DNA of 11,918 nucleotides from an uncultured Coriobacteriales bacterium (GTDB taxonomy: Bacteria; Actinomycetota; Coriobacteriia; Coriobacteriales; Atopobiaceae): positions 1 through 11,918 of the forward strand of contig CAMZCV010000012.1 in the NCBI GenBank assembly GCA_947305035.1, given 5' to 3'. The notes beneath the pieces were generated by a model. The model saw only the letters and a list, made by a program, of their open reading frames with translations, had not been told where the DNA came from and did no database searches. Both the position numbers and the translations under genes were made by a program. Of this stretch, positions 2-11,918 are shown piece after piece (positions within the stretch are counted from its first letter, which is position 1; every line of letters begins with the position of its first letter).

Positions 2-1321
2 AGGATCCGCCGCGGCTCCAAGAGGAGGGGGCTCTCCGTCACCGAGGACATGGCCCTGAGGAAATGGCGCCAGTTCAGGAGCGGCGCTGGGAAGACCCTC
101 CGCTCCTTCGTCATCTCCTCGCACGCCCGCATGACGTCGCTGTGCTCCGACGACGTCCTCGACATGCTCTCCGGCATCGACGGGGCCGACGAGCTCCATC
201 TCGAGCAGCTCGGCCAGGACAGGGTCGGCACGGTGGTCGCGGAAGACGGGACGATCGTCTCCAAAGGCGACCGCCGCCCACCTCGCGCCATCTTCGTCCG
301 CACCTCGGACTTCGACGGGAAGCTCAACGCCCTGCTCTCCATCCTCATGTGGCAGGCGATCTTCCTGCCGATGTCGGAGGCGGACAGGCAGGGAGGCAGG
401 CTCCCGCGGCCGGTCTCGATCATCATGGACGAGTTCAAGAACATCGGGAAGCTCCCCTCCTTCGACCAGTGCATCGCCGTCGTGCGCTCCCGAAACATCG
501 ACCTCACGGTCATCCTGCAGAACCTCTCGCAGCTCAAGGAGGTATACGGGCAGGAGGGCACCGACACCATACGCGGCAACTGCGCGACGACGGTCTTCCT
601 CGCGGGCGGTCAGGACTACGCCACCGCCCGCCAGCTCTCCGAGGAGAGCGGGAAGCGAACCATCACGGTCCAGTCGGAGACGGTGCATGCAGGCATCGTC
701 CCCGACATCTCCTACCAGTACTCGCAGAAGGACCAGGAGGTCTTCGAGGCATCGGAGCTCGCGCACATGGACGCGGGACACGCCGTCGTCTGGATGGGGT
801 CGGAGTACCCCGTCGAGGATGCGAAGAGCTGGGTATTCGAGCACAGGAACTACGACCCCGCCTACATGTTCGACCCCAGCGACCCGCCCGAGCGGCACCA
901 CGAGTTCGATTTCTCGGACTGGAGGGAGAACGGCTCCCCGCTCGGGAGCGATGCGGAGCAGTGGAGGCGCTCGCTCGAGGCGAGGCAGGACGCCGCCCAT
1001 GCGCGGATGGCCGTCGTCGAGGCGGAGGACGACGTCCGCGCAGCAGAGGAATCCCTCGCCAGAGCGAGGGGCCGCGCCGCCGAGCGGAAGGCGAATCAGC
1101 TGCTCGAGGCGAGGCGGGCGATCCTCCGCCGCCGCCTCGACGAGCGGGACAGGGCCTCCGCCGCCCTCGAGGCGCTGGAGGCGAAGCAGATGGATTGCGG
1201 GAATGAGAAGGGCCGCCCGGGCGACGACATGGTCGCGACGATGCATTGGGCTTCCACCCCCGCCGCATCCCGGGCAGCCCGATCCGTACGAGAGAAGGCC
1301 CGCAGGCGGGCTTCCCCGTGA
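2..1321 (+). CDS. Type IV coupling protein, VirD4/TraG family (5' partial)
   Basis: The reading frame is open to the left edge, so the N terminus, including the membrane anchor and Walker A, lies outside the window. Visible codons begin at base 2. The Walker B stretch SIIMDEF (acidic pair at bases 428-433) is followed by GKLPSFDQCIAVVRSRNI and QNLSQLKEVYG, the characteristic VirD4/TraG segment downstream of Walker B. Such ATPases sit at the inner face of the membrane and bring the relaxase-DNA complex to the secretion channel. After the ATPase core, from about base 950, comes a long charged Ala/Arg/Glu-rich tail, probably a coiled coil, which may contact the relaxosome (inference). The last 71 bases form one copy of a module that recurs at 9783-9853. 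The small VirB2-like gene follows after a 69-base leader. The family call is secure; the tail function is not. Confidence 0.93.
   Translation, partial: RIRRGSKRRGLSVTEDMALRKWRQFRSGAGKTLRSFVISSHARMTSLCSDDVLDMLSGIDGADELHLEQLGQDRVGTVVAEDGTIVSKGDRRPPRAIFVRTSDFDGKLNALLSILMWQAIFLPMSEADRQGGRLPRPVSIIMDEFKNIGKLPSFDQCIAVVRSRNIDLTVILQNLSQLKEVYGQEGTDTIRGNCATTVFLAGGQDYATARQLSEESGKRTITVQSETVHAGIVPDISYQYSQKDQEVFEASELAHMDAGHAVVWMGSEYPVEDAKSWVFEHRNYDPAYMFDPSDPPERHHEFDFSDWRENGSPLGSDAEQWRRSLEARQDAAHARMAVVEAEDDVRAAEESLARARGRAAERKANQLLEARRAILRRRLDERDRASAALEALEAKQMDCGNEKGRPGDDMVATMHWASTPAASRAARSVREKARRRASP
1251..1321 (+). repeat. Copy 1 of a 71-bp two-copy module
   Basis: This stretch shares three cores at identical spacing with 9783-9853: CTTCCAC (1251-1257), TCCGTACGAGAGA (1283-1295) and CCCC-N-TGA (1314-1321). 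By hand alignment 42 of 71 positions match without gaps, with almost all identity in the cores. Here it encodes the last residues of the coupling protein (ASTP, six residues, RSVRE, seven residues, P-stop). It can also be drawn as a stem, 1245-1252 with 1276-1283, directly before the second core. Function unknown. Confidence 0.6.
1298..1311 (+). other. GC-rich hairpin at the end of the coupling-protein gene
   Basis: GCCCG (1298-1302) pairs with CGGGC (1307-1311) around a four-base loop, and two weaker outer pairs can extend the stem. No T-run follows, so it is not a standard intrinsic terminator. It could slow polymerase or protect an RNA end between the coupling protein and the downstream genes; that is inference. 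Confidence 0.35.
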
Positions 1322-1390: not shown

Positions 1391-1678
1391 ATGAGAGGGG
1401 CCATCGCCAAGGGAATCGGGACCGTCCTCGCAGCGGAAGGCTACGACGCGCAGGGCACGCTTACCTCGATCCTCAACACCATCTCTCAGGGCGTCTTCTT
1501 CATTGGCGCCGCGATCATGGGATGGGGGTTCGTGCAGATCGGCATCGCGGTCTTCAGCGACACCAAGGGCGGCGGGGCGCAGATCATCTCCGCCTTCCAG
1601 GCCATCGTCGCCGGCGCGATTATCATGGTCGCCTCCGCGATCTTCGGCGGGCTGCCGACGCAGTGGGTCTCCATGTGA
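1391..1678 (+). CDS. Small two-TM conjugation protein, VirB2/TrbC- or Maff2-like
   Basis: This 95-residue protein has a short N-terminal segment, then two hydrophobic helices (about residues 30-53 and 65-88) joined by a short DTKGGG loop. The size and two-helix layout match the VirB2/TrbC pilin-like and Maff2 families found beside PrgI and VirB4 in Gram-positive conjugation modules. It probably forms part of the membrane pore or a minimal pilus-like subunit. No clear signal peptide cleavage site is seen. A GGGAGA ribosome-binding site precedes ATG 1391, and the gene ends 10 bases before the PrgI gene. The family assignment rests on topology and position rather than a diagnostic motif, so the choice between VirB2-like and Maff2-like is open. 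Confidence 0.75.
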   Translation: MRGAIAKGIGTVLAAEGYDAQGTLTSILNTISQGVFFIGAAIMGWGFVQIGIAVFSDTKGGGAQIISAFQAIVAGAIIMVASAIFGGLPTQWVSM

Positions 1679-1688
1679 GGGCTGCGCC

Positions 1689-2111
1689 GTGCTCACCACG
1701 AACATACACGCCGACCTCACGAAATACCGACCCAAGATCGTCGGGGGCCTCACGGCGCGCACGCTCGCGTGCATCGTCCTCGCCCTCGCAACGGCGGTGG
1801 CCATCGCCGCGGTCGCGTGGTTCGCGTTCGGGGCGGAGGCAGACTCCGTCGGAATCATCGTCTTCGTCGCCGTCATCCCCTTCTGGTCGATCGGGTTCCT
1901 CGAGCCCGATGGGATGAGGTTCGAGCAGTGGCTGCCGCTTTGGATACGCCACAACTTCGGAGGAGACGAGCTCGTCTACGAGAACAGGTCTCGGTACGAG
2001 GAAGCCAGCTTCGGCGGGCTGATGCATTGGGGAAGGAGGGCGCATGCCGTTACCAAGGCTTACAGGAGGTACCGCGGGAAGAGGGGCTTCGAGCGATGGC
2101 CCTCGGTTTGA
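1689..2111 (+). CDS. PrgI family conjugation membrane protein
   Basis: This 140-residue protein starts at GTG 1689, just after the upstream stop, where TGAGGG supplies a modest ribosome-binding site. The N-terminal part (NIHADLTKYRPKIVGGLTAR) matches the PrgI pattern of a short soluble start followed by a Lys/Gly-Leu-Thr-x-Arg motif. Two hydrophobic helices follow (about residues 27-48 and 53-70), ending in an IPFWSIGFLEPDGM stretch, and then a basic C-terminal tail. PrgI proteins are small inner-membrane channel components encoded next to the VirB4 ATPase in Gram-positive type IV systems. The last 23 codons overlap the start of the VirB4 gene in another frame. An in-frame ATG further upstream is rejected because it would lie deep inside the preceding gene. 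Confidence 0.88.
   Translation: MLTTNIHADLTKYRPKIVGGLTARTLACIVLALATAVAIAAVAWFAFGAEADSVGIIVFVAVIPFWSIGFLEPDGMRFEQWLPLWIRHNFGGDELVYENRSRYEEASFGGLMHWGRRAHAVTKAYRRYRGKRGFERWPSV
2031..2039 (+). promoter_or_regulatory. Strong ribosome-binding site inside prgI fixing the VirB4 start
   Basis: GGAAGGAGG lies inside the PrgI coding region and ends 4 bases before ATG 2044. It is the best Shine-Dalgarno match near the VirB4 start. It supports translation beginning at 2044, upstream of the zinc-ribbon cysteines, and points to translational coupling with prgI. Confidence 0.7.
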
Positions 2112-4815
2112 CCTGGGAAGGAGGTGCCCCTCCTGCCACGAGCAGGTTGGATCCGGCGACAGGGACTGCCCCGCATGCGGCTCCGAGCTCCCCGTCGACG
2201 TGAGCGACGTCTACGAGGAGGGTCCGGTCGAGGTGTACGACCTCGGCGATGAGGATCCCCTCCCTCGGGAAGAGCCGGTGGCTGCGGAGCCTCCCGTGGA
2301 GAGGCCGAAGGGCATAGCAGCCCGCATCAGGGCAGCCCTCGCCCCGCGCAAAGCGGATGGAGGAGATGACGAGGTCTCGTACAAGGAGGCCATGGAGCGG
2401 TTCCGCGCACGGGACAAGACCCTCGCCTCGGCTATGGACGAGAAGAGGCGGAACCGGAGGCGAGCCCGCAGCGTCTACGACGCGATCGGCTTCGACCTCA
2501 TGTACAGCGACGGGATATGCGAGGTCGAGGAGGGCCTCTTCTCCCAGACGCTCTCCTTCGAGGACGTGAGCTACCAGACCGCACGGGTGGAGTCCCAGTC
2601 GGAGATGTTCCGCGAGCTCTGCCGCTTGGTCGACCACTTCGGGCCGAACACGTCGATCCAGTTCACGATAGCCAACACGCTCCTCTCCGAGGAGGACATC
2701 GAGTCGAGGCGCTTCTTCGACCCCGCCGAGTGCGGGGAGAACGCCGACGCCGCCCGCGTGTTCAACTCGATACTGTCCGCCAAGATGCGCGAGGGTTCTT
2801 CGAACATCAGGAGGGACCGCTACATCACCTTCTCCACGCTCGCTCCGAACCTGCAGCGCGCCACCCAGCTCCTCGCGAGGAGCAGGGGCTGGGTCCGCCA
2901 GAGCTTCAACGTCCTGAAGTCGAGGACCCACAGGCTCGACGGCGAGGAACGCCTCGCTGTCATCTCCTCGATCCTGCGCCCAGGAAAGCCGTTCACGTTC
3001 AGCTACGACCGAGACCTCAGCTCCACCTCCCCGCTCACGGCGAAGGACTTCGTCTGCCCCGCCTCGCTCAACTTCAAGCCGAGCGGGCCGGAGGCCGTCT
3101 GCTATCGGAGCGGGGATGTCTGGTGCCAGATCCTCGTCTTCCGACCGGATTTCGCGGCGGAGGTGACCGACCGCGCCATCGCGTCGATACTCGACCTCCC
3201 CATCCCCATGGCAGTCTCCTGGCACCTGCAGCCCATCGACAAGTCCAAGGCGATCGAGATGTCGCGCACACAGGCAGGCTGGATCCAGAAGGAGGTCATC
3301 GAGGAACAGAGGCGCGCGATCAGAGGCGGCTACGATTTCGAGCTCCTCTCCCCAGGCCTCGCCGAGGCCAAGGACGAGAACGCGCGCGTGCTCGACCTCC
3401 TCATGCACCTGAGCCAGCGCTCCTACTACTTCAGCGGGCTCGTCTTCACCTACGCGGGAACGAAGGCGAGGCTCCACGAGCAGGCCCAGCAGATCATCTC
3501 CGCCGCGCAGGCGGAGGGCATCGAGCTCGAGGCGTACGCCCTGCGCCAGAGGGAGGGCCTGAACTCGGTGCTGCCCCTCGGGCACAACCACTGCGACATC
3601 TACCGGGACCTCATGACGAGGGAGCTCGGTATCTTCGTGCCGTTCACGACGCTCGAGCTCGACATGGAGGGCGGAGGCTACTACGGGCAGAACGCGCTCT
3701 CCGGAAACCTCGTCATATGCAACCGCGAGGAGCTCATGAGCCCGCACGGGTTCGTCTGCGGGATGTCCGGCTCCGGGAAGTCCTTCGCGGTGAAGCGCGA
3801 GATCACGAACACCGTGCTCTCGCACCCCAGATCGCGTATCTTCATCCAGGACAGCACCGGGGAGTACACCTACCTCGTGAGGAGCCTCCACGGCATCGAG
3901 TACGCCTACGGACCCGACTCGGACGTACACTACAACCCGTTCGCGCTCGACGAGGGCGACGACCTCACCTACCAGGCCAAGCTCGCCTGGAAGATCGACG
4001 CGGTTCTGGCGATGACGTCCGCCCTGAAGTCCGATGCGGACGCATCGCTCACGCAGGAGGAGCGCTCGATCATAACCAAGGTCGTCGAGTCGATGTACCG
4101 CGATTTCGACGGGGCGTTCTCCGAGCCCCTGATGGAGGACTTCGTGGAGCGGCTCGAGGCCTACGAGGGCACGGGCGAGGACGAGGCGAGGCGACTCGCG
4201 CTCGTCTTCGGACGCTACACCTCCGGGACCTTCTCCTTCCTCAACCACCCCTCCACCCCGCAGGACGCCTCCACGAACCTCATCTCCTTCAACATCAAGG
4301 ACGTGCCGGGCGACATGCGCTCGCTCGCGATGATCTCGATGCTCGAGAGCATCCGCCAGGAGATGTACGCGAACCACGGGAAGGGGATCTCCACATGGGT
4401 CTACATCGACGAGATCCAGTCCCTCACGGGAAGGACCGCGGTCCTCGAGTACCTGGCGAGGCTCTGGAGGGAGGGCCGCAAGTACGGCCTCATCTGCACG
4501 GGCATGACGCAGTCGGGCATGGCGATCGGAGACAACGACCTCACCCGAGACCTGATCGACCAATCGGGGTTCGTTCTGCTCCTCAGGCAGGGCGACGAGG
4601 ACAGGGCCTACTGGGCGGAGCGCAAGGGGCTCTCGCAGCGGGAGCTCGAGGCCATTGACGAGAACTGCGAGCCGGGATGCGGGCTGCTCATCGCCGACGG
4701 CGCGCGCGTCCCCTTCCGAGACGACTTCCCCAAGGGCAACGTCCTCTACGACATCTTCAACACCGACCCCAAGGAGTACGCGCGCAGGATGGCGCGCGAG
4801 AAGGGGGCGGGCTGA
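2044..4815 (+). CDS. VirB4-family conjugation ATPase with N-terminal zinc ribbon
   Basis: This 923-residue protein carries Walker A GMSGSGKS at residues 573-580 and Walker B VYIDEIQ with Asp789-Glu790. The later GLICTGMTQSG stretch is typical of VirB4/TrbE ATPases, which energise channel assembly and DNA passage at the cytoplasmic face. The N-terminal VirB4 domain occupies about residues 110-520. The odd part is the first 100 residues: a CPSC-x10-CPAC zinc ribbon (Cys28, 31, 42, 45) followed by an acidic, Pro-rich linker. Ordinary VirB4 proteins of about 800 residues lack this. ATG 2044 overlaps prgI by 68 bases and has a strong ribosome-binding site; no other ATG, GTG or TTG lies in frame between it and the zinc ribbon. 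Its stop overlaps the ATG of the CHAP gene (ATGA-type junction). The ATPase call is secure; the zinc-ribbon role is unknown. Confidence 0.95.
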   Translation: MPLPRLTGGTAGRGASSDGPRFDLGRRCPSCHEQVGSGDRDCPACGSELPVDVSDVYEEGPVEVYDLGDEDPLPREEPVAAEPPVERPKGIAARIRAALAPRKADGGDDEVSYKEAMERFRARDKTLASAMDEKRRNRRRARSVYDAIGFDLMYSDGICEVEEGLFSQTLSFEDVSYQTARVESQSEMFRELCRLVDHFGPNTSIQFTIANTLLSEEDIESRRFFDPAECGENADAARVFNSILSAKMREGSSNIRRDRYITFSTLAPNLQRATQLLARSRGWVRQSFNVLKSRTHRLDGEERLAVISSILRPGKPFTFSYDRDLSSTSPLTAKDFVCPASLNFKPSGPEAVCYRSGDVWCQILVFRPDFAAEVTDRAIASILDLPIPMAVSWHLQPIDKSKAIEMSRTQAGWIQKEVIEEQRRAIRGGYDFELLSPGLAEAKDENARVLDLLMHLSQRSYYFSGLVFTYAGTKARLHEQAQQIISAAQAEGIELEAYALRQREGLNSVLPLGHNHCDIYRDLMTRELGIFVPFTTLELDMEGGGYYGQNALSGNLVICNREELMSPHGFVCGMSGSGKSFAVKREITNTVLSHPRSRIFIQDSTGEYTYLVRSLHGIEYAYGPDSDVHYNPFALDEGDDLTYQAKLAWKIDAVLAMTSALKSDADASLTQEERSIITKVVESMYRDFDGAFSEPLMEDFVERLEAYEGTGEDEARRLALVFGRYTSGTFSFLNHPSTPQDASTNLISFNIKDVPGDMRSLAMISMLESIRQEMYANHGKGISTWVYIDEIQSLTGRTAVLEYLARLWREGRKYGLICTGMTQSGMAIGDNDLTRDLIDQSGFVLLLRQGDEDRAYWAERKGLSQRELEAIDENCEPGCGLLIADGARVPFRDDFPKGNVLYDIFNTDPKEYARRMAREKGAG

Positions 4816-6467
4816 TGGCGGGAGCGGAGGTCCGGAAGGCGATGGGTCGCGCCGGAGCCCTGTCGGTCTGGGGCATCGGCGACGATGCCGCGGAATGTTA
4901 TCCCTATAACGGGCATAAAGGACGTTGTGCCCGTTATAGGGATAACAGGCCTTATGCCACAGGCAGGAAGCGGTATAGGCAATACATTGCGGATATTTCT
5001 GCCGTCAACGCCGTCGGATCGGGCGACGGGGACGGAGATGGGACGGAGGCGCCTGCCGTCGAGAGCATGGTGCGCTTCGCGGTAGCGGACGCCTCCGCAG
5101 CGTCTCCCACCATCTCGATGCCGGCCAAGACCGCAGCGCACCCCCTCAGGAGGCTCCAGGCGAGGGCGAACGCCCGGGAGTCGAGGAGGCTCCACGAGGA
5201 TGGCGCGTCCATCGGATCGACCGCATCCCGGAGCATCGCAGGCGCCCTGTCCGAGGCGACGGGCGCGGTCGCATCGCTCGTCTCCGCAGCCTCCGTCCAG
5301 GCGGCGTCGCTCCTCATCCCCATGCTCATCCCCGTCCTGGCCGCGATCGCCATCCTCTCGGTCCTCCCGACCTGCACCGCGACGCTCACGCTCCTCCCGC
5401 AGGGCACGGGGGGCGCCGCAGTAGCGCGTGCGGCGCTCTCCGAATACCGTGTCGGCGAGGAGTCCGGGAGCTACGGGCATGGTGAGCAGAAGTACTGGAA
5501 CCGCGTCTTCGGCGGCGGGTTCGTGAACGGTTACCAGACGCCCTGGTGCGCCTGCTTCGTCTCCTGGTGCGCAGACGAGGCGGGATCCGTCGGCCAGGGG
5601 CTCGTCCCGGTGCTCGGGGGATGCGGAGGCTTCCTCGAGTGGTATGCGTCCCATCCCGATGCGGGCACCGTGTACCACGGCTTCGCGGGCTACTTCCCCC
5701 AGGTCGGGGACTTCATCATCTACAACTCGACGGGAGGCCCCGGAGTGGGTCACGACCATATCGGCCTCGTCGCCAGGGTCCACGACGACGGGAGCTTCGA
5801 TACCGTCGAGGGCAACACCTACGCACCGCATTCGAGCATGTGCGGCTTGTCCGACAACCACTGCGGCATCCACTACCACCAGCGCGTCGGGGACGGTTGG
5901 CCCTCGGCCGACAGGACGGGCAACGGCCGCGGGGGCGGCGAGCCGTCCTTCATCCGCCCCGCCTACGCGGCATCCGGCATGGGAGAGATAGCCATCCCCG
6001 AGTACAGCAGCGGCACCTGCCCCGTAGGGCATTCCTTCGAGAACGTGCCCGTGGGGACGTACGCCACGCGCGAGTGGGATCTGGCGGAGAACAGCTTCGC
6101 CGCCGGCTCCGCGCAGGCGCGCGTCCAGGCGCGCTGGAGGAGCGCGGGATCCGTCACCGACGCCGCCGGGTTCAACACGCTCGACGGGTGCTACCTCATC
6201 GCCTGCACCTCGGCCTTCGGGGACGTGGGCGACCGGATCACTTTCTACTTCGACGACGGCACGGCCATCGAGTGCGTGAAGGTCGACGCCAAGGCGGAGT
6301 CCGTCGCGGCTCATGACGGGCACCCCGCCACCAGATGGGGGCATGCCCACGATGCGAACGTGCTTGAGTTCTGCGGGACGGACGCCATCGGGGACGACCC
6401 CTACCTAGCGCTCGGCCTCGACGGGCGGCGCGTAGTGTCCGCGACGAACCACGGCTCGATCCTCTAG
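4815..6467 (+). CDS. Membrane-anchored CHAP-domain peptidoglycan hydrolase
   Basis: This 550-residue protein has a basic, low-complexity N-terminal region (1-160), one hydrophobic helix at about 166-186, and a CHAP domain at about 200-350. Candidate catalytic residues are Cys245 in TPWCACFVSWC, His315 in GHDHIGLV and Glu332 in VEGN. A further domain at about 390-550 contains DRITFYFDDGTAIECVKVDAK. Such enzymes cut wall peptides or cross-links locally so the conjugation channel can pass, and are regular members of Gram-positive type IV clusters (VirB1-like role). With the N terminus inside, the catalytic domain faces the wall. The start overlaps the VirB4 stop by one base, with AAGGGGG upstream. 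Residues 28-45 are encoded by a perfect palindrome in a low-GC patch, apparently an in-frame insertion. The CHAP call is strong; the C-terminal domain is unassigned. Confidence 0.9.
   Translation: MAGAEVRKAMGRAGALSVWGIGDDAAECYPYNGHKGRCARYRDNRPYATGRKRYRQYIADISAVNAVGSGDGDGDGTEAPAVESMVRFAVADASAASPTISMPAKTAAHPLRRLQARANARESRRLHEDGASIGSTASRSIAGALSEATGAVASLVSAASVQAASLLIPMLIPVLAAIAILSVLPTCTATLTLLPQGTGGAAVARAALSEYRVGEESGSYGHGEQKYWNRVFGGGFVNGYQTPWCACFVSWCADEAGSVGQGLVPVLGGCGGFLEWYASHPDAGTVYHGFAGYFPQVGDFIIYNSTGGPGVGHDHIGLVARVHDDGSFDTVEGNTYAPHSSMCGLSDNHCGIHYHQRVGDGWPSADRTGNGRGGGEPSFIRPAYAASGMGEIAIPEYSSGTCPVGHSFENVPVGTYATREWDLAENSFAAGSAQARVQARWRSAGSVTDAAGFNTLDGCYLIACTSAFGDVGDRITFYFDDGTAIECVKVDAKAESVAAHDGHPATRWGHAHDANVLEFCGTDAIGDDPYLALGLDGRRVVSATNHGSIL
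4896..4947. repeat. Perfect 20-bp inverted repeat within the CHAP gene
   Basis: The left arm (4896-4915) and right arm (4928-4947) are exact reverse complements, separated by 12 bases. Each arm also contains its own small inverted repeat, GTTAT-N4-ATAAC, so the structure is nested. It lies in a stretch (4891-5000) with 52 G/C in 110 bases, against 37 of 50 on each side. That patch uses A/T-ending codons (TAT, TGT, CGT, AAA, ATT) rare elsewhere here. A second short palindrome, GCAAT-AC-ATTGC, lies at 4979-4990. The reading frame stays open throughout. It looks like an inserted palindromic element. Confidence 0.9.
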
Positions 6468-6476
6468 GAGGCGGAA

Positions 6477-7286
6477 ATGCGCGATTATCTGGAAAGGCTC
6501 CTCTCCACGTGGCCCGGGCGCATCGCTGCGATCTTCGCCATCGCGCTCGTGCTGTCGCTCCTCGCGTTCTGCGCGCGGGGCGGTGGCGAGGACGAGGAGG
6601 CCTCGACCGGACCCAATGAGATACCTGCACCCGCCTCAGCGTCAGCACCCGATGCAGCGCTCCCCGACGGGACGGTCTCCCCATCCGAGCCTGCACCCGA
6701 CACCGCATACTCCCCCGACAACCCGGACCTCTCCACCAAGATCATGGGATGGCTCGTCGAGCACGGCTTCCCCTACACCGCATCGGTCACCACGGTCTCA
6801 GACGAGGTGGTCGACGTCGGGAACGGCGCGACCGCCCGCCTCGTCATCTGGTCGGTCGAGGACGGGGAGGCGTACATCGCAGGACAGCAGCAGGGCGGCG
6901 GATGGACCGTCTGGACGTCCGACGGCCCAGATGGCGGCGAGGCGCCGTCGATGAGGTCGTACGACGGCATGCTCTCCATCTACCAGGCGGATGCGCTCGC
7001 CGAGCTCATGCCGCGCGAGCTCGCGGAGAGCCTCGTCGACCCCTGGCTCTCATTCGCGGGATCGCGCAGGGTCTCGGGCACCTCGGCCCGCATCCCCACC
7101 TCGTCGGTCGCAGCGGATGGGGATGCCGCCTCGTTCCTGCTCGTCGTCGACGACTTCGACGGGAGCATCCCCGAGACGCGCTTCTTCCTCGCGGAATGCA
7201 GCCGCTCCAAGAAGGGCTGGAAATGCTCCTTCGAGGAGTTCGGCGCGGATGAGGCGCGGGAGATCATCGGGAAGGAGGGCGTCTGA
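6477..7286 (+). CDS. Single-TM conjugation-cluster protein of unknown function
   Basis: I do not recognise this 269-residue protein. A short positively charged start leads to one hydrophobic helix (about residues 14-32), then an acidic, Pro/Ala/Ser-rich linker (about 36-85) and a globular domain of some 180 residues with many beta-type stretches. It ends with FLLVVDDFDG and GWKCSFEEFG. The layout of a cytoplasmic stub, one helix, a linker and an external domain is that of VirB8/TcpC-type channel proteins, and the slot beside the VirB6-like gene fits that role, but I see no diagnostic VirB8 motif. AGGAGG, overlapping the upstream stop codon, is a strong ribosome-binding site. The stop overlaps the next start by one base. 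A lipoprotein reading is unlikely because the residue before the candidate Cys is Phe. Confidence 0.8.
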   Translation: MRDYLERLLSTWPGRIAAIFAIALVLSLLAFCARGGGEDEEASTGPNEIPAPASASAPDAALPDGTVSPSEPAPDTAYSPDNPDLSTKIMGWLVEHGFPYTASVTTVSDEVVDVGNGATARLVIWSVEDGEAYIAGQQQGGGWTVWTSDGPDGGEAPSMRSYDGMLSIYQADALAELMPRELAESLVDPWLSFAGSRRVSGTSARIPTSSVAADGDAASFLLVVDDFDGSIPETRFFLAECSRSKKGWKCSFEEFGADEAREIIGKEGV

Positions 7287-8245
7287 TGGCGAAGGGAAGG
7301 AGGCTGTGGCATGCGGCCTTCGCGACAGGAGCCGCGCTCGCCCTCGCACCGACGGCCGCATACGCCGCGACGCTCCAGGAGCAGGCGGAGGCGTTCCTCG
7401 CCAAGTTCCTCGTCGATGCGGCGAACGCCCAGTTCGCGGGCATCGCGGAGCACACCTCGCAGATCGCCCATGCATCAGGCCTCATGGACCCCCTGAGGGA
7501 CGCGCTGGGCGACGGGGGCGCCTTCTACACCCAGGTGACGGCCGCATCCTACGTGGTCGTCCGCCCGATCGCCCTCTCCATCCTCTGCCTCGTCGTGCTC
7601 GTGCAGCTCCTCGAGATCTCCCGCAAGTACGACGCCAACGCCCAGCTCCCCGTCGTCAAGGAGGTGCTCACCCTCGCCGTGTACTTCGCCATCTGCGTCT
7701 GGCTCATCAACATCAGCACCCGCCTCTGCGAGGCGATCTTCGACATCTCCGCGGGGATCATCAACGCGTTCAGCTCCCAGCTGAACGCGGGGGGCATCGA
7801 GGAGATGGTGACCCCCGAGCTCACCTACAGCAGCGTGAGCGTCGGAGAGGTCATCGGCATCGCGCTCGCCGCCCTCATCACGGGCCTGCTCTCCACGGTC
7901 GCGGGGGCAGTCACCCAGCTCGTGGTCATGGCGCGCGTGCTCCAGGTCTACGCGATGGTCTTCCTCTCACCCATCCCCCTCTCGCTCATGGGCATGGAGC
8001 AGACGAGGCAGTTCGCCGTCGGGTTCCTCAGGAGCTTCGCCTCTCTCGCGCTCGCGGGTGTCATGATGTTCTTCATCATCGCCGCCTATCCGACGATCCT
8101 GAACATCCTCATCGTCGCCTCCAACCATCTCGCGGAGGAGGGCGGGCTCTACATGAACTGGATCACCTCCTCCCTGATCATGAACGTCCTCTACATCTGG
8201 GCCCTCACCAGGTCGGGCGCCTGGGCGCAGTCCCTGTTCGGATAG
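7286..8245 (+). CDS. VirB6/TrbL-like polytopic conjugation membrane protein
   Basis: This 319-residue protein starts with a classic signal sequence (MAKGRR, a hydrophobic core, then cleavage near AYA-AT at residues 25-28). About six hydrophobic helices follow from residue 90 onward, including segments starting VVVRPIALSILCLVVLVQLL and FAVGFLRSFASLALAGVMMF. The central VMARVLQVYAMVFLSPIPLSLMG stretch resembles the conserved core of VirB6/TrbL-type proteins in Gram-positive elements, where the family forms the inner-membrane part of the DNA channel. A GAAGGAGGG ribosome-binding site sits before ATG 7286, which overlaps the stop of the upstream gene. The position after VirB4 and the CHAP gene is later in the order than in the Tn1549-like layout I recall, where it precedes PrgI. 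Family assignment is by topology and context. Confidence 0.82.
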   Translation: MAKGRRLWHAAFATGAALALAPTAAYAATLQEQAEAFLAKFLVDAANAQFAGIAEHTSQIAHASGLMDPLRDALGDGGAFYTQVTAASYVVVRPIALSILCLVVLVQLLEISRKYDANAQLPVVKEVLTLAVYFAICVWLINISTRLCEAIFDISAGIINAFSSQLNAGGIEEMVTPELTYSSVSVGEVIGIALAALITGLLSTVAGAVTQLVVMARVLQVYAMVFLSPIPLSLMGMEQTRQFAVGFLRSFASLALAGVMMFFIIAAYPTILNILIVASNHLAEEGGLYMNWITSSLIMNVLYIWALTRSGAWAQSLFG

Positions 8246-8258
8246 GAGGGCTGCGGCG

Positions 8259-8870
8259 ATGGATGCGAGATACGTCGGGAGGTGCCCCCGCTGCGGGGGG
8301 CGCGTGCTGGATGCGGGCAGGCTCTACGCCTGCGAGAACGCCATGGCCAGGGAGAAGAAGGGGCAGGCCGCCTGCAACTGGAGGCTCTGGAAGGTCTTCC
8401 GGCGGTGCGCCATCACCGAAGGGGCGCTGGGTCGCCTCCTCGCGGGCGATGAGGTCGTCATCGAGTGCGCCACGGAATCAGGCGACGCCTACAGGCTGAC
8501 CGTGTTCCTCGACCCCGACCGCAATTACGCGCTCTACCCCGTCAGGAGGGTCGTCGGCGAGTGCCCCGCATGCGGCGGGAGGCTCCTCGAGGGCGACCGT
8601 GCGGTCCGTTGCGAGAACAACCGGACCCATCAGGTCGGCGGGAGATGGGTGAACGACGGGACTTGCTCCTTCCGCGTCCAGAAGGACATCAACGGGGTCC
8701 GCCTGTCCACAGCCGAGATCGCAAGGCTCGCGGCGGGCGAGGAGGTCTTCCTCCGCGGGCTCGCGGGGAAGGGCGGGAGGAAGCTGGACGCTTGGATGAG
8801 GCTCGACAGGAGGGACGGCTTCAAGCCTGCCTTCCAGCTCGATGGGAAGGGAGTTCGCAGTGGAGACTGA
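8259..8870 (+). CDS. Tandem topoisomerase-type zinc-ribbon protein without catalytic domain
   Basis: The 203 residues form two repeats of about 90 to 100. Each begins with a CPxCGG zinc ribbon: CPRCGGRVLDAG, then YACEN and a later Cys; CPACGGRLLEGD, then VRCEN and a later Cys. Each continues into Cys-x-(W/F)-R and an LLAGDEV or LAAGEEV segment followed by beta strands. This matches the zinc-finger repeat at the C terminus of type IA topoisomerases such as TopB, which helps bind single-stranded DNA. No Toprim or active-site Tyr region is present, so it cannot be a topoisomerase itself. A single-strand binding or adaptor role near the transfer channel is inference. AGGAGGG lies 8 bases before ATG 8259. 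It overlaps the next gene by 11 bases if that one starts at GTG 8860. Confidence 0.8.
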   Translation: MDARYVGRCPRCGGRVLDAGRLYACENAMAREKKGQAACNWRLWKVFRRCAITEGALGRLLAGDEVVIECATESGDAYRLTVFLDPDRNYALYPVRRVVGECPACGGRLLEGDRAVRCENNRTHQVGGRWVNDGTCSFRVQKDINGVRLSTAEIARLAAGEEVFLRGLAGKGGRKLDAWMRLDRRDGFKPAFQLDGKGVRSGD

Positions 8871-9711
8871 GAGGGGCAACGGGATGGGAGCCCGCGGAAA
8901 CCGGATCGGACGGGCGGCAGCTGCCTTCGGGATCGCGGTCGCCATCGCGGCGATCCTTGCCGCCCGATCATGTGCCCCCGCCCCCACCTCGGAGGCGCCG
9001 CCACATGCTGCCCCGCAGCAGACCGAGGCCGTCGAGACGGGCGGACGCGGCGCGGACCGGGAGCCCTCGCCCCAGAAGGAGGAGCCCGCCTCCGATGGGA
9101 CGGGCAAGCGCACCGGAACCCTGCCCGGCACCCAGCAGGACACGATCTCCAGAACGCGCCGACGCGAAACCGCCGCCGGTCAGGACGAGGCGGCGCCTTC
9201 CGACGGAGGCAGCATGGCGGTACCCCCCGCTCCTTCTGCACCGGAGAGCGGCTCCGGCGGCCAGGGCGGCAGCTCGGGCGATGCACCCGCACCGGAGCCC
9301 GGGAAGAGGACCTGCCAGGCATGCGGCGGGACCGGCTCGGTCAGGACCGGGTCGAGGACCGTCACCGACAGCGCCGCCTGGGACGAATGGGTCGTCGACA
9401 GCCCAGCATGGGACGAGTGGGTCGTCGACAGCCCAGCCTGGAACGAGACGGTCTACCTCGGCATCCAGTTCTCAGACGGCACGTTCTTCGCCGCCGGGGA
9501 CGAGGCATCCGCGGACGCCTACGAGGAATCGGTCGTCCTCGCGGGGGGATCAATCTCGAGCAGCAACGTCTACGGCTCGGTCCACCACGACGAGGTCGGG
9601 CATACCGTGCACCACGACGAGACCGGCCATGCGGTCCATCACGACGCCGTCACCCATGTCGAGGACGTCTACGGGACCTGCCCTGCCTGCGGCGGGAGCG
9701 GAACCGTGTAG
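8860..9711 (+). CDS. Membrane-anchored protein with split CxxCGGxG zinc knuckle and tandem repeats
   Basis: I chose GTG 8860 because GGAAGGGAG lies 6 bases upstream. ATG 8842 has no ribosome-binding site, and ATG 8884 is a weaker alternative. The 283 residues hold one N-terminal hydrophobic helix (about 20-36), a long Pro/Glu/Gly-rich disordered linker to about 150, and then CQACGGTGSV (Cys152, 155). The protein ends with CPACGGSGTV (Cys274, 277). These two DnaJ-like half-knuckles could together hold one zinc ion. Between them are three copies of a DSPAWDEWVV unit and three of a VHHDExGHx unit. With the helix as signal anchor, the repeats would lie outside the membrane. No known function is recognised. 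Gene order places it as the last member of the conjugation operon, before the adhesin. Confidence 0.75.
   Translation: METERGNGMGARGNRIGRAAAAFGIAVAIAAILAARSCAPAPTSEAPPHAAPQQTEAVETGGRGADREPSPQKEEPASDGTGKRTGTLPGTQQDTISRTRRRETAAGQDEAAPSDGGSMAVPPAPSAPESGSGGQGGSSGDAPAPEPGKRTCQACGGTGSVRTGSRTVTDSAAWDEWVVDSPAWDEWVVDSPAWNETVYLGIQFSDGTFFAAGDEASADAYEESVVLAGGSISSSNVYGSVHHDEVGHTVHHDETGHAVHHDAVTHVEDVYGTCPACGGSGTV
9367..9456 (+). repeat. Three 30-bp tandem repeats encoding DSPAWDEWVV
   Basis: Units at 9367-9396, 9397-9426 and 9427-9456 encode DSAAWDEWVV, DSPAWDEWVV and DSPAWNETVY. The first two are close to identical at DNA level and the third has diverged, as expected from in-frame duplication. They keep the Trp and Asp/Asn-Glu positions. 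Confidence 0.9.
9580..9660 (+). repeat. Three 27-bp tandem repeats encoding a His-rich unit
   Basis: Units at 9580-9606, 9607-9633 and 9634-9660 encode VHHDEVGHT, VHHDETGHA and VHHDAVTHV. Each keeps a His-His-Asp core and a further His, a spacing suited to metal binding, though that is inference. They lie just before the second half-knuckle. Confidence 0.9.
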
Positions 9712-9954: not shown

Positions 9955-11918
9955 ATGCAGAAGCGCAAGAAGAGAACCGACACGTTGCACCCCATCCGCT
10001 GGGGCATGGGCACGGGAAGGAGGATCGGGACGGCGATCGTCGCGCTCGTCCTCGTCCTCAACCAATGCCTCTGGCCCCTCGGACCCTCGAAGATGGCCCT
10101 CGCCGAGGAGGCCGATGGCGGGGATTCCGCCATCATCATCGAGGCGGCGCCCGACGAGGCCCCCGAAGCCGTCGTCGAGGAGGAGCCGTCGGCCCCCGAC
10201 GCCCCCGACGTTGCTGCGGAGCCGGTCGTCGAGCAGGAAGGATCCGAGCTGCCCGATGGCGAGCCCGGCCTTCCCGACGCGAACGCCCCTCCGACCGAGC
10301 AGACCGAGGAGCCATCGCTCCCGGAAGCACCATCCACCATCGATGTCGCCTACAAGGTCGTCAGAGGAGCGGGCGCGGAGTCCTTCACCGATTCCGCGGC
10401 GGTCGAGGCGGGAGCGGCCTCCAACCGCGTCCGGCTCGACACCGACCTCGGATTCGAGGACGGGACAGAGGTCGAGCTCCGCATCTCGATCCTCCTCGAC
10501 GGGAACGACATCACGTACAGGGCGGAGGTCGCCCCTGACGGGAGCTGGATCGAAATCCCCGCGGAGATCGACCTCTCCAGGGTCGAGATCGAGGTGACGG
10601 CCACCGCAGCCATGCCCGAGGAGGTCTCCCCCGAAGCAGCCGAGCCCATCGAGTCTGAGGAAGCGCCTTCCGCAGCCGAGGAGGACCAGATGATCCCTGG
10701 GAAGCAGGCGGAGGACGCACGGGATGGCGGGAGCCAGCTTGTCGCAGACGAGCCGGATCAGGAGGAGTCCGAGCAGCCGGACGATCTCCTTCCGGACGAT
10801 GGCGATGGGGAGGATTCCGGGGAGGCCGATGCCGAGGAGCTCGACGGCGAGGCCATCGCCGCCCAGATGGCGGAGTTCGAGGCCTTCTTCGAGGAGGCCG
10901 GCCTCGGCGAGGACGAGCAGCAGGCCTTCATGATGCAGGTCGGCATCCCGCTCCTCGCGGCAGCAGGGTCCACGGGAACCATCACGAGCATGAGGTCCAC
11001 GGGCCTCGGCGACGGCATCACCGCAGGCTATACCTGGACGCTCGACGGCAGGCAGGCGTACTGCATGTCCGGGTACTTCGCAGACCCCGTCGTTGGCCAG
11101 ACGCTCACCCGCTACAGCGGGAACCTCGGCATCAGGGAGCTCGACTACGTCCTCTACCACGGCTACGACGGCGTGACCGTCACGAGCGTGGGAGGGCTCA
11201 ACGCGATGAGGTCGATCGCAGCCACCCAGGCGGCGGTCTGGTACGTCGTCGGGGACAAGCGTCCCGACATCCTCAACACCCACGGATACAGCCATAACGA
11301 GAACTACTACAACCGCCTCTACGGCCTCGACGTCATCGACGGAAGGCAGGACATCTTCCGCGCGGCCAAGGCGCTCGTCGACGCCGCGACCGCATACGCG
11401 AACTCCGGCGGAGGCGGCCCCGAGGCGGGCTTCGCGCAGGTCTACCTCAACGACGGCTCCGTCCACGACAGCGCTGGCTACCTCATCCAGCACATGGCGG
11501 CAGTCGGCGAGAAAATGGGCACCCTCCGGCTCGTTAAGGTATCCGCGAACCCGTCTCTGACGACCAACCTCGCATGCTACGGCCTCGCAGGCGCGGAGTA
11601 CGGCGTCTACACGGACTCCAGCTGCTCCGCGAGCTCGCTCGCAGCCACAATCAGGACCGATTCGAACGGAGTGGGATCCGCGGCACTTCCCGCAGGCACC
11701 TACTACGTCAAGGAGACCAAGGCGAGCTCGGGCTTCCTGCTCGACACCGAGGTCCACACCGTCACGGTGCCTACGGGCGGGACGGGCACCGTGACGTCGA
11801 CCGAGCAGCCGGGCAACGACCCCATGAACGCGCGCGTCGTGAAGCGCGACAAGGACACCGGCGAGGCGAGCCCCCAGGGAGGAGGCACCCTCGCGGGGGC
11901 GGAGTTCACGCTCCGCTA
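9955..11918 (+). CDS. Thioester-domain, SpaA/Cna_B-type surface adhesin (3' partial)
   Basis: The frame runs off the right edge after about 654 codons. ATG 9955 follows a stop in the same frame (9952-9954) and has AAAGGAG 7 bases upstream. A long signal peptide has a basic start (MQKRKKR), a hydrophobic core and cleavage near ALA-EE at residue 50. The mature start is acidic and Pro-rich, with a beta domain at about 127-215 and a second very acidic stretch to about 310. A thioester domain follows, with QAYCMSG (Cys370) and ATQAAVWYVVG (Gln425), the pair expected to form a covalent Cys-Gln bond that can attach to host or partner surfaces. A SpaA/Cna_B domain then has candidate isopeptide Lys528 and Glu587, and another begins near residue 630 (VVKRDKDTG). 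An LPxTG-type anchor would lie beyond the window. It probably promotes attachment during mating or colonisation. Confidence 0.9.
   Translation, partial: MQKRKKRTDTLHPIRWGMGTGRRIGTAIVALVLVLNQCLWPLGPSKMALAEEADGGDSAIIIEAAPDEAPEAVVEEEPSAPDAPDVAAEPVVEQEGSELPDGEPGLPDANAPPTEQTEEPSLPEAPSTIDVAYKVVRGAGAESFTDSAAVEAGAASNRVRLDTDLGFEDGTEVELRISILLDGNDITYRAEVAPDGSWIEIPAEIDLSRVEIEVTATAAMPEEVSPEAAEPIESEEAPSAAEEDQMIPGKQAEDARDGGSQLVADEPDQEESEQPDDLLPDDGDGEDSGEADAEELDGEAIAAQMAEFEAFFEEAGLGEDEQQAFMMQVGIPLLAAAGSTGTITSMRSTGLGDGITAGYTWTLDGRQAYCMSGYFADPVVGQTLTRYSGNLGIRELDYVLYHGYDGVTVTSVGGLNAMRSIAATQAAVWYVVGDKRPDILNTHGYSHNENYYNRLYGLDVIDGRQDIFRAAKALVDAATAYANSGGGGPEAGFAQVYLNDGSVHDSAGYLIQHMAAVGEKMGTLRLVKVSANPSLTTNLACYGLAGAEYGVYTDSSCSASSLAATIRTDSNGVGSAALPAGTYYVKETKASSGFLLDTEVHTVTVPTGGTGTVTSTEQPGNDPMNARVVKRDKDTGEASPQGGGTLAGAEFTLR

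Follow-up and report, generated by a model that had tools for sequence, protein, structure and literature searches.

The window, by which the whole analysed stretch of 11,918 nucleotides is meant, is contig C12 of an assembly that is 68.75% complete (G000). Its genes form a T4SS cluster (Table 1), in which the start codon of the CHAP gene overlaps the stop codon of the VirB4-like gene. The gene carrying the palindrome had been assigned to a CHAP-domain protein in the preliminary description, and the domain search agrees with this assignment (PF05257, E 7.6e-12, residues 239-334). Matches to the CHAP region occur in phages (8 records, each covering at most 25% of the protein) and in plasmids (4 records, at most 21% of the protein), and no relatives of the CHAP protein were found in viral contigs. 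A second, shorter hairpin with 12-bp arms and a 12-nt loop is located at 11760-11796 within a late reading frame and has an identical copy in a contig of the related genome G003 (L026:5385-5421). Three tandem 30-nt repeats, 73-80% alike, are located at 9361-9450 inside the reading frame 8842-9711.

Table 1. Genes and sequence features of the window, in order of position
Feature	Position	Strand	Basis
VirD4/TraG coupling protein	50..1321	+	top NCBIfam match CD1115 family, 189 bits (cut-off of 250 not reached)
PrgI-like conjugation membrane protein, reading frame	1674..2111	+	PF12666
VirB4-like conjugation ATPase, CD1110 family	2044..4815	+	NCBIfam NF045971, E 7.6e-203
CHAP-domain protein (conjugation lysin), 550 aa	4815..6467	+	PF05257
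Inverted repeat, 20-bp arms and 12-nt spacer	4896..4947	.	hairpin search, RNA fold
Patch of low GC content and atypical codon use, within the CHAP gene	4896..5005	+	G/C and codon counts
Seven contiguous 9-nt units, candidate binding array for the RHH-like protein	4897..4959	.	unit reading, matrix scan
TrbL/VirB6-like conjugation protein	7286..8245	+	PF19478

The perfect inverted repeat described previously was recovered, with all 20 positions of the arms (4896-4915 and 4928-4947) being reverse complementary. The arms grow to 23 nt around a 6-nt loop if one mismatch is permitted. Among the hairpins of the window with loops of up to 30 nt the palindrome ranks first, and the runner-up has 12-bp arms. 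Each arm contains the nested hairpin GTTAT-N4-ATAAC, and the reading frame stays open across the patch, as had been stated. A recount of the patch gave 53 G/C bases out of 110 rather than the 52 reported earlier, whereas the value of 37 out of 50 for each flank was reproduced. The codons of the patch are indeed foreign to the gene: 20 of its 36 codons end in A or T, against 58 of the other 514. Tyrosine is encoded by TAT in five of six cases in the patch and in one of 16 elsewhere in the CHAP gene.

The nine-nucleotide array

Searches with the CHAP protein in 140 genomes of the family, including its own, showed matches in 11 genomes and a full-length ortholog in three, namely G000 itself, G003 (93% identical) and G002 (65%). 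Seven further CHAP homologues from the protein database are more distant and cover 24-56% of the protein, and two clusters of lysins comprise 39 and 16 members. The comparison at the DNA level comprises three orthologous loci, two of which are 93% identical; the block lies at the same position between alignable flanks in all three (3/3), and no locus is without it (0/3). Within codons 28-45, six bases differ between G003 and the window and three codons change the amino acid, with the stem being kept. The block of G002 differs strongly in sequence from that of the window, with the period and the pentamer being kept. The N-terminal stretch of the CHAP protein that carries the block is poorly conserved.

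The palindrome belongs to an array with a period of 9 nt, which reads GTTATCCCT ATAACGGGC ATAAAGGAC GTTGTGCCC GTTATAGGG ATAACAGGC CTTATGCCA. Each unit is made up of a pentamer that approximates RTNAY and, behind it, four bases that are mostly G/C; RTNAY is its own reverse-complement pattern. The array in the CHAP gene has seven units in the window, seven in G003 and 11 consecutive ones in G002, with exact RTNAY pentamers in four, five and ten of them, respectively. As G002 carries 11 units of another sequence at the same position of the protein, it is the period of the DNA that is kept and not the peptide. The centromere of pCXC100 has a unit length of 9 bp.

Used as a DNA query, the G002 block also gave a weak match elsewhere in G002 (43 bp, 79%, E 8e-4), in the gap between parA and the gene for an 80-aa protein. 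The orthologous pair of parA and the small gene in G003 likewise has an array in between. Iterated sites are found at two places of the par operon. The junction between parA and the small, RHH-like gene has six units in G003 and eight in G002, of which four and six, respectively, contain an exact RTNAY. Five or six units are located upstream of parA in G000, G002 and G003, with exact pentamers in three of six, three of five and two of six, respectively. The units are loose overall, and those at the par locus are looser than the intragenic ones. In G002, the intragenic array with its 11 units is longer than those at the junction (eight) and upstream of parA (five).

Exact RTNAY pentamers at 9-nt spacing (at least four of six) were sought in nine sequences, and matches occur at the CHAP blocks and the parA-RHH junctions only. 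The same pattern was absent from 37 other loci, some of which overlap (166 kb), and from 1.13 Mb of shuffled sequence. Neighbouring 13-mers of ATRACGGGCATRA type (one mismatch allowed, at most 100 nt apart) were compared in the five genomes from the genus; among the tabulated matches they are confined to G000:C12, G003:C8, G002:C14 and G002:C32, in a test that overlooks divergent units such as those of G003:C3. Pentamers of the RTNAY type spaced by 9 nt provide a recognisable motif for finding such systems.

A matrix trained on the CHAP-gene arrays only was run on 30 selected stretches with a total of 293,493 bases. The CHAP arrays scored 35.0 in G002, 33.1 in G003 and 28.6 in the window. The parA-RHH junctions scored 29.1 (G002:C32) and 27.5 (G003:C3), and the sites upstream of parA scored 28.9 (G000:C44), 25.4 (G002:C32) and 23.2 (G003:C3); the junction arrays of G002 and G003 were known before the unit frame was fixed, and the upstream site of G000 came from a later scan. 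The maximum in 20 shuffles was 21.3. One unrelated off-target site, at a locus of ~46% GC (L071), reached 24.3, which is more than the weakest par site attained. In G002 and G003 it is the intragenic array that scores highest. It is not always the strongest, because the par site of G000 is level with the CHAP array of the window.

The symmetry of the arrays was compared with that after permutation of the pentamers and the spacers within each array. The palindromic symmetry goes beyond that given by the units in the window (p 0.0064) and in G003 (p 0.0024), which are close relatives. The symmetry is as the units predict in the CHAP array of G002 (p 0.22), and likewise in the par arrays, where the five p values range from 0.11 to 0.95. 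The excess is limited to the window and G003, and what the loci share is therefore the 9-nt array. The symmetry of these two arrays exceeds that of their units, so some further factor also shaped the palindrome. Possible factors are a preference of the protein for this arrangement of units, a role of the RNA, or sequence correction templated by the hairpin.

The par genes and the ends of the element

The ParA proteins have 261-263 residues. The AAA_31 domain (PF13614) begins at residue 3 in the G002 protein, the Walker motif reads KGGVAKST, and an N-terminal HTH is absent. The ATPase domain thus extends from the N-terminus, as it does in systems of type Ib. The small protein encoded directly downstream of parA has 80-86 residues and 23 relatives in the protein database. 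Conservation is seen in its C-terminal half and in its N-terminal tail, where Arg13 is invariant. By analogy with the type Ib proteins, as presented in a review, Arg13 may act as an arginine finger.

The C-terminal half of the small protein is weakly suggested to be RHH-like. Among 25 homologues searched against Pfam at E <=0.1, 14 matched FitA-like_RHH (best E 0.0015), three matched RHH_1 and one matched Omega_Repress (0.0036); the two members for which scores are given lie under the curated cut-off of Pfam. The predicted model shows helices at residues 41-53 and 60-84 and no strand, at a low confidence (pLDDT 63.8). A sequence search of the PDB gave no convincing solved relative, and a fold search with the same low-confidence model gave no match.

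Within the order, 395 genomes were searched for the small RHH-like gene; G002 and G003 are the two in which it was found, and both have the intragenic array. A search in a class-level draw of 396 genomes found the gene in G003 only, with G002 evidently not being in the draw. No relatives of the RHH-like protein were found in viral contigs or plasmids. The assembly of the window has the same parA (99% over residues 1-81), and its partner gene is not visible because the contig stops inside parA. G001 (99% complete) and G004 (98%) lack the RHH gene, a close parA and a CHAP ortholog, and carry a distant VirB4.

The CHAP array and parA were not seen together on any single contig. On C8, the T4SS contig of G003, a tRNA-Met gene is followed by three copies of GTGTGCTGAA and then by the region toward the T4SS. 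Contig C3 shows a 47-bp copy of the 3' region of tRNA-Met and three copies of GTGTGCTGAA, together with genes for a tyrosine integrase, ParA, the small protein and a relaxase. The 47-bp stretch and the 10-mer, in three copies per end, are thus common to the C8 and C3 ends. In G002, the repeated 10-mer is a different one, GGTGCTGAAA. Three copies lie next to an integrase-like gene where the T4SS contig, C14, ends, and three more lie at the parA end of C32. Over 61 bp, the end of G002:C32 matches the tRNA-Thr end of G000:C44 without a difference, and no tRNA was called on G002:C32 by ARAGORN. The shared repeats indicate a putative attachment core and candidate arm sites of the integrase. Read in this way, these attachment-like repeats strongly suggest that C8 and C3 of G003 represent both ends of a single integrative conjugative element (ICE), and are suggestive of the same for C14 and C32 of G002, which probably form such a pair.

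As estimated from the coordinates, the CHAP array and the parA-RHH array of G002 and G003 would lie ~12-14 kb apart in the excised circle. They would do so only in the circle, because parA-RHH and the T4SS would stand at opposite ends of the integrated element.

The T4SS end adjoins the tRNA in G003 and the integrase in G002, with parA-RHH being at the opposite end in both. This arrangement corresponds to an inversion or an end swap of the interior of the ICE. The target tRNA also differs, being tRNA-Met in G003 and tRNA-Thr in G002 as judged by the identity with G000.

A separate mobilisable element was considered for the parA module of G003, to which pointed the relaxase matches on four contigs and the lack of a shared 15-mer between flanks compared within either contig. 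The 47-bp stretch and the 10-mers common to C8 and C3 favour a single ICE instead. Relatives of the C3 relaxase, 56-65% identical, are present on three more contigs of G003 (C17, C36 and C39), and only one VirB4 match of the genome reaches E 1e-60. The extra relaxases suggest several related mobilisable elements. Outside the ICE part of G003:C8, a perfect inverted repeat with 50-bp arms and almost no loop is located at L027:1911-2011; we take it to resemble a REP-type repeat, unlike the window palindrome.

Possible functions of the array

Since the units of the array are shared with the par locus, a docking site is likelier than an insert of jumping DNA. From the sequence comparisons, the palindrome is likely to be part of an intragenic, putative binding array, probably centromere-like, for the ParA/RHH system of the ICE itself. 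The gene for the T4SS lysin would contain a row of 9-bp sites within its coding sequence, and the candidate ligand would be the RHH-like product of the small gene that follows parA on this ICE. Binding of this protein to the array is predicted from sequence. Its dimers may bind adjacent 9-bp units cooperatively, as those of omega do on 7-bp units, and the array-bound protein would offer a platform to the ParA ATPase. The array may then serve as a centromere-like or tethering site by which the excised, replicating ICE would be held to ParA, either for segregation or for positioning for transfer. The arrays beside parA could be an operator, additional sites or both. Placement of the array in the lysin gene would be workable because this stretch of the protein is poorly conserved.

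Provided that the protein binds, a centromere-like role of the array is about evenly balanced, and a purely regulatory role is conceivable though doubtful. A more specific proposal is put forward tentatively, as plausible but short of probable: the centromere for the ParA/RHH system of the ICE would lie inside the lysin gene of the mating channel, and the two groups of sites would come to stand ~12-14 kb apart only after excision and circularisation. If true, a proximity restricted to the circle would tie segregation or positioning to excision and transfer.

The main rival is a purely regulatory role at the lysin gene. The RHH-like protein would act on an operator or roadblock controlling the lysin and the downstream T4SS genes, which would be silenced while the element is integrated, and would have no role in segregation. 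According to published accounts, the omega repeats of pSM19035 lie at promoters and the repeats of R388 (stbDRs) lie around the stb promoter. Here the array starts ~80 nt into the gene that follows virB4 and is ahead of the TrbL-like gene and later genes, a position that would suit such control. However, no promoter of sigma-70 consensus was found at 4600-5200 (Actinobacterial promoters may differ from this consensus), and a site within a coding region would be an unusual operator. Control of these genes is also compatible with a centromere role. Regulation alone is considered rather unlikely.

An RNA element is improbable. Such an element would be an mRNA hairpin that adjusts how the transcript is translated, processed or degraded between virB4 and the lysin gene. 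The stem on the plus strand is very stable in the window (-56.1 kcal/mol, z -7.5, with none of 200 shuffles as good), in G003 (-55.5 kcal/mol, z -8.2) and in G002 (-60.9 kcal/mol, z -4.7). The stem pair 4901/4942 is changed on both sides between the window and G003, and G003 has U-A in place of one U-G pair of the window. However, the minus strand folds about equally, both in the window (-49.1 kcal/mol, z -8.1, none of 200 shuffles as good) and in G002 (-72.8 kcal/mol, z -5.5). The five par arrays and the CHAP array of G002 are without the excess of inverted symmetry, and no Rfam family matched the window at its gathering score. In addition, the best downstream hairpin at 27 other virB4 loci, four of which include less than 600 nt downstream, scored 12.5, compared with 20.5-24.5 here.

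Neutral drift of a tripeptide repeat or a quasipalindrome in a putatively disordered segment of the protein is very improbable. The block does encode loose tripeptide repeats, and hairpin-templated correction could give matched changes in both arms. Drift of this kind is at odds with the similar 9-nt units in the non-coding DNA of the par locus and with the keeping of the DNA period between the window and G002, where the peptide is poorly conserved.

An in-frame insertion of a dispersed mobile palindrome of the RPE, REP or MITE type, which had been the first suggestion, has next to no likelihood: the GC content, the codons, the palindrome itself and the poorly conserved N-terminal region would fit it, but no second copy of the palindrome was found in the host assembly (68.75% complete) or dispersed across 60 genomes including its own, none of the three orthologous loci is cleanly without the block, and similar units are confined to the par loci in the stretches scanned, save for the one off-target site. 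Beyond the window, the search of the 60 genomes gave the G003 ortholog and a 31-bp partial match in G031, which was dismissed as chance-like since it sits in a different coding region. A palindrome within an open reading frame is the character of the Rickettsia palindromic elements, from which the present palindrome differs in that dispersed copies were not found.

The preliminary description had named, as the outcome speaking against an insertion, a block present in all orthologs at ordinary divergence and without other genomic copies. This outcome was obtained for the palindrome itself, whereas the block of G002 diverges far beyond the ordinary. The option of a regulator binding site, raised in passing in the same description, is favoured by the data, as similar 9-nt units occur at the parA/RHH locus.

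The binding-array reading ties an odd palindrome to a concrete, testable pair of DNA and protein. It suggests that ICEs of Coriobacteriia may actively segregate or position their excised form, and it would represent a cis-acting site that is kept inside a coding sequence while the surrounding segment of the protein changes.

Comparison with known partition systems

Partitioning of ICEs has been little explored. Intragenic centromere sites (IncC), ICE-borne partition (SrpMRC) and 9-bp repeats bound by StbA are already known. The literature searched gave no case of an ICE in which a T4SS gene contains an iteron array for a small protein associated with ParA. Among the matches listed in this search, which mostly excluded subscription papers, there was no centromere array in an ICE conjugation gene and no partition system of a Coriobacteriia ICE.

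The par locus resembles the type Ib systems (pSM19035 delta/omega, TP228 ParFG and pCXC100) in having a small ParA with the ATPase domain from the N-terminus, a small downstream partner and repeats upstream of the operon. In pSM19035, the parS arrays comprise 7-10 contiguous 7-bp units, on which cooperating omega dimers assemble, and at least four contiguous repeats are needed for full activation of ParA. In contrast to type Ib, the units here have 9 nt, an extra array is located inside a distant T4SS gene and the carrier is an ICE; the RHH fold and the partition activity are putative.

The stbABC operon of R388 shares the 9-bp repeats and the small protein beside a ParA-like ATPase. StbA binds the repeats and works beside the ParA-like StbB, linking plasmid stability with conjugation, and deletion of stbA increased transfer 50-fold and led to plasmid loss. 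The stbDRs form two sets of five 9-bp repeats with 2-nt spacing around the stb promoter. An Stb-like system is recognised by 9-bp direct repeats that are spaced by 2 nt and lie near oriT, and by StbA preceding StbB, an arrangement that differs from the present one. Here the units are contiguous, one array is intragenic and parA precedes the small gene, whereas StbA is upstream of StbB in R388, and the sequence differs as well. The partition proteins of R1, in turn, stimulate conjugation and contact the relaxase, the coupling protein and the VirB4-like ATPase.

Centromere sites scattered over a conjugative element, beside promoters of transfer genes, are a likeness to the IncC parABS system and the parS mimics of SGI1, and four of the IncC parS sites lie within ORFs. 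These sites differ in being single 22-bp inverted repeats for a ParB, which is of the HTH type by modelling, rather than iteron arrays. SrpMRC of the SXT/R391 ICEs is described in its report as the first partition system reported to stabilise an ICE family, and it is likewise an ICE-borne active partition system for the excised form. However, its ATPase is of the actin type (type II), and its centromere-like region is located upstream of srpM.
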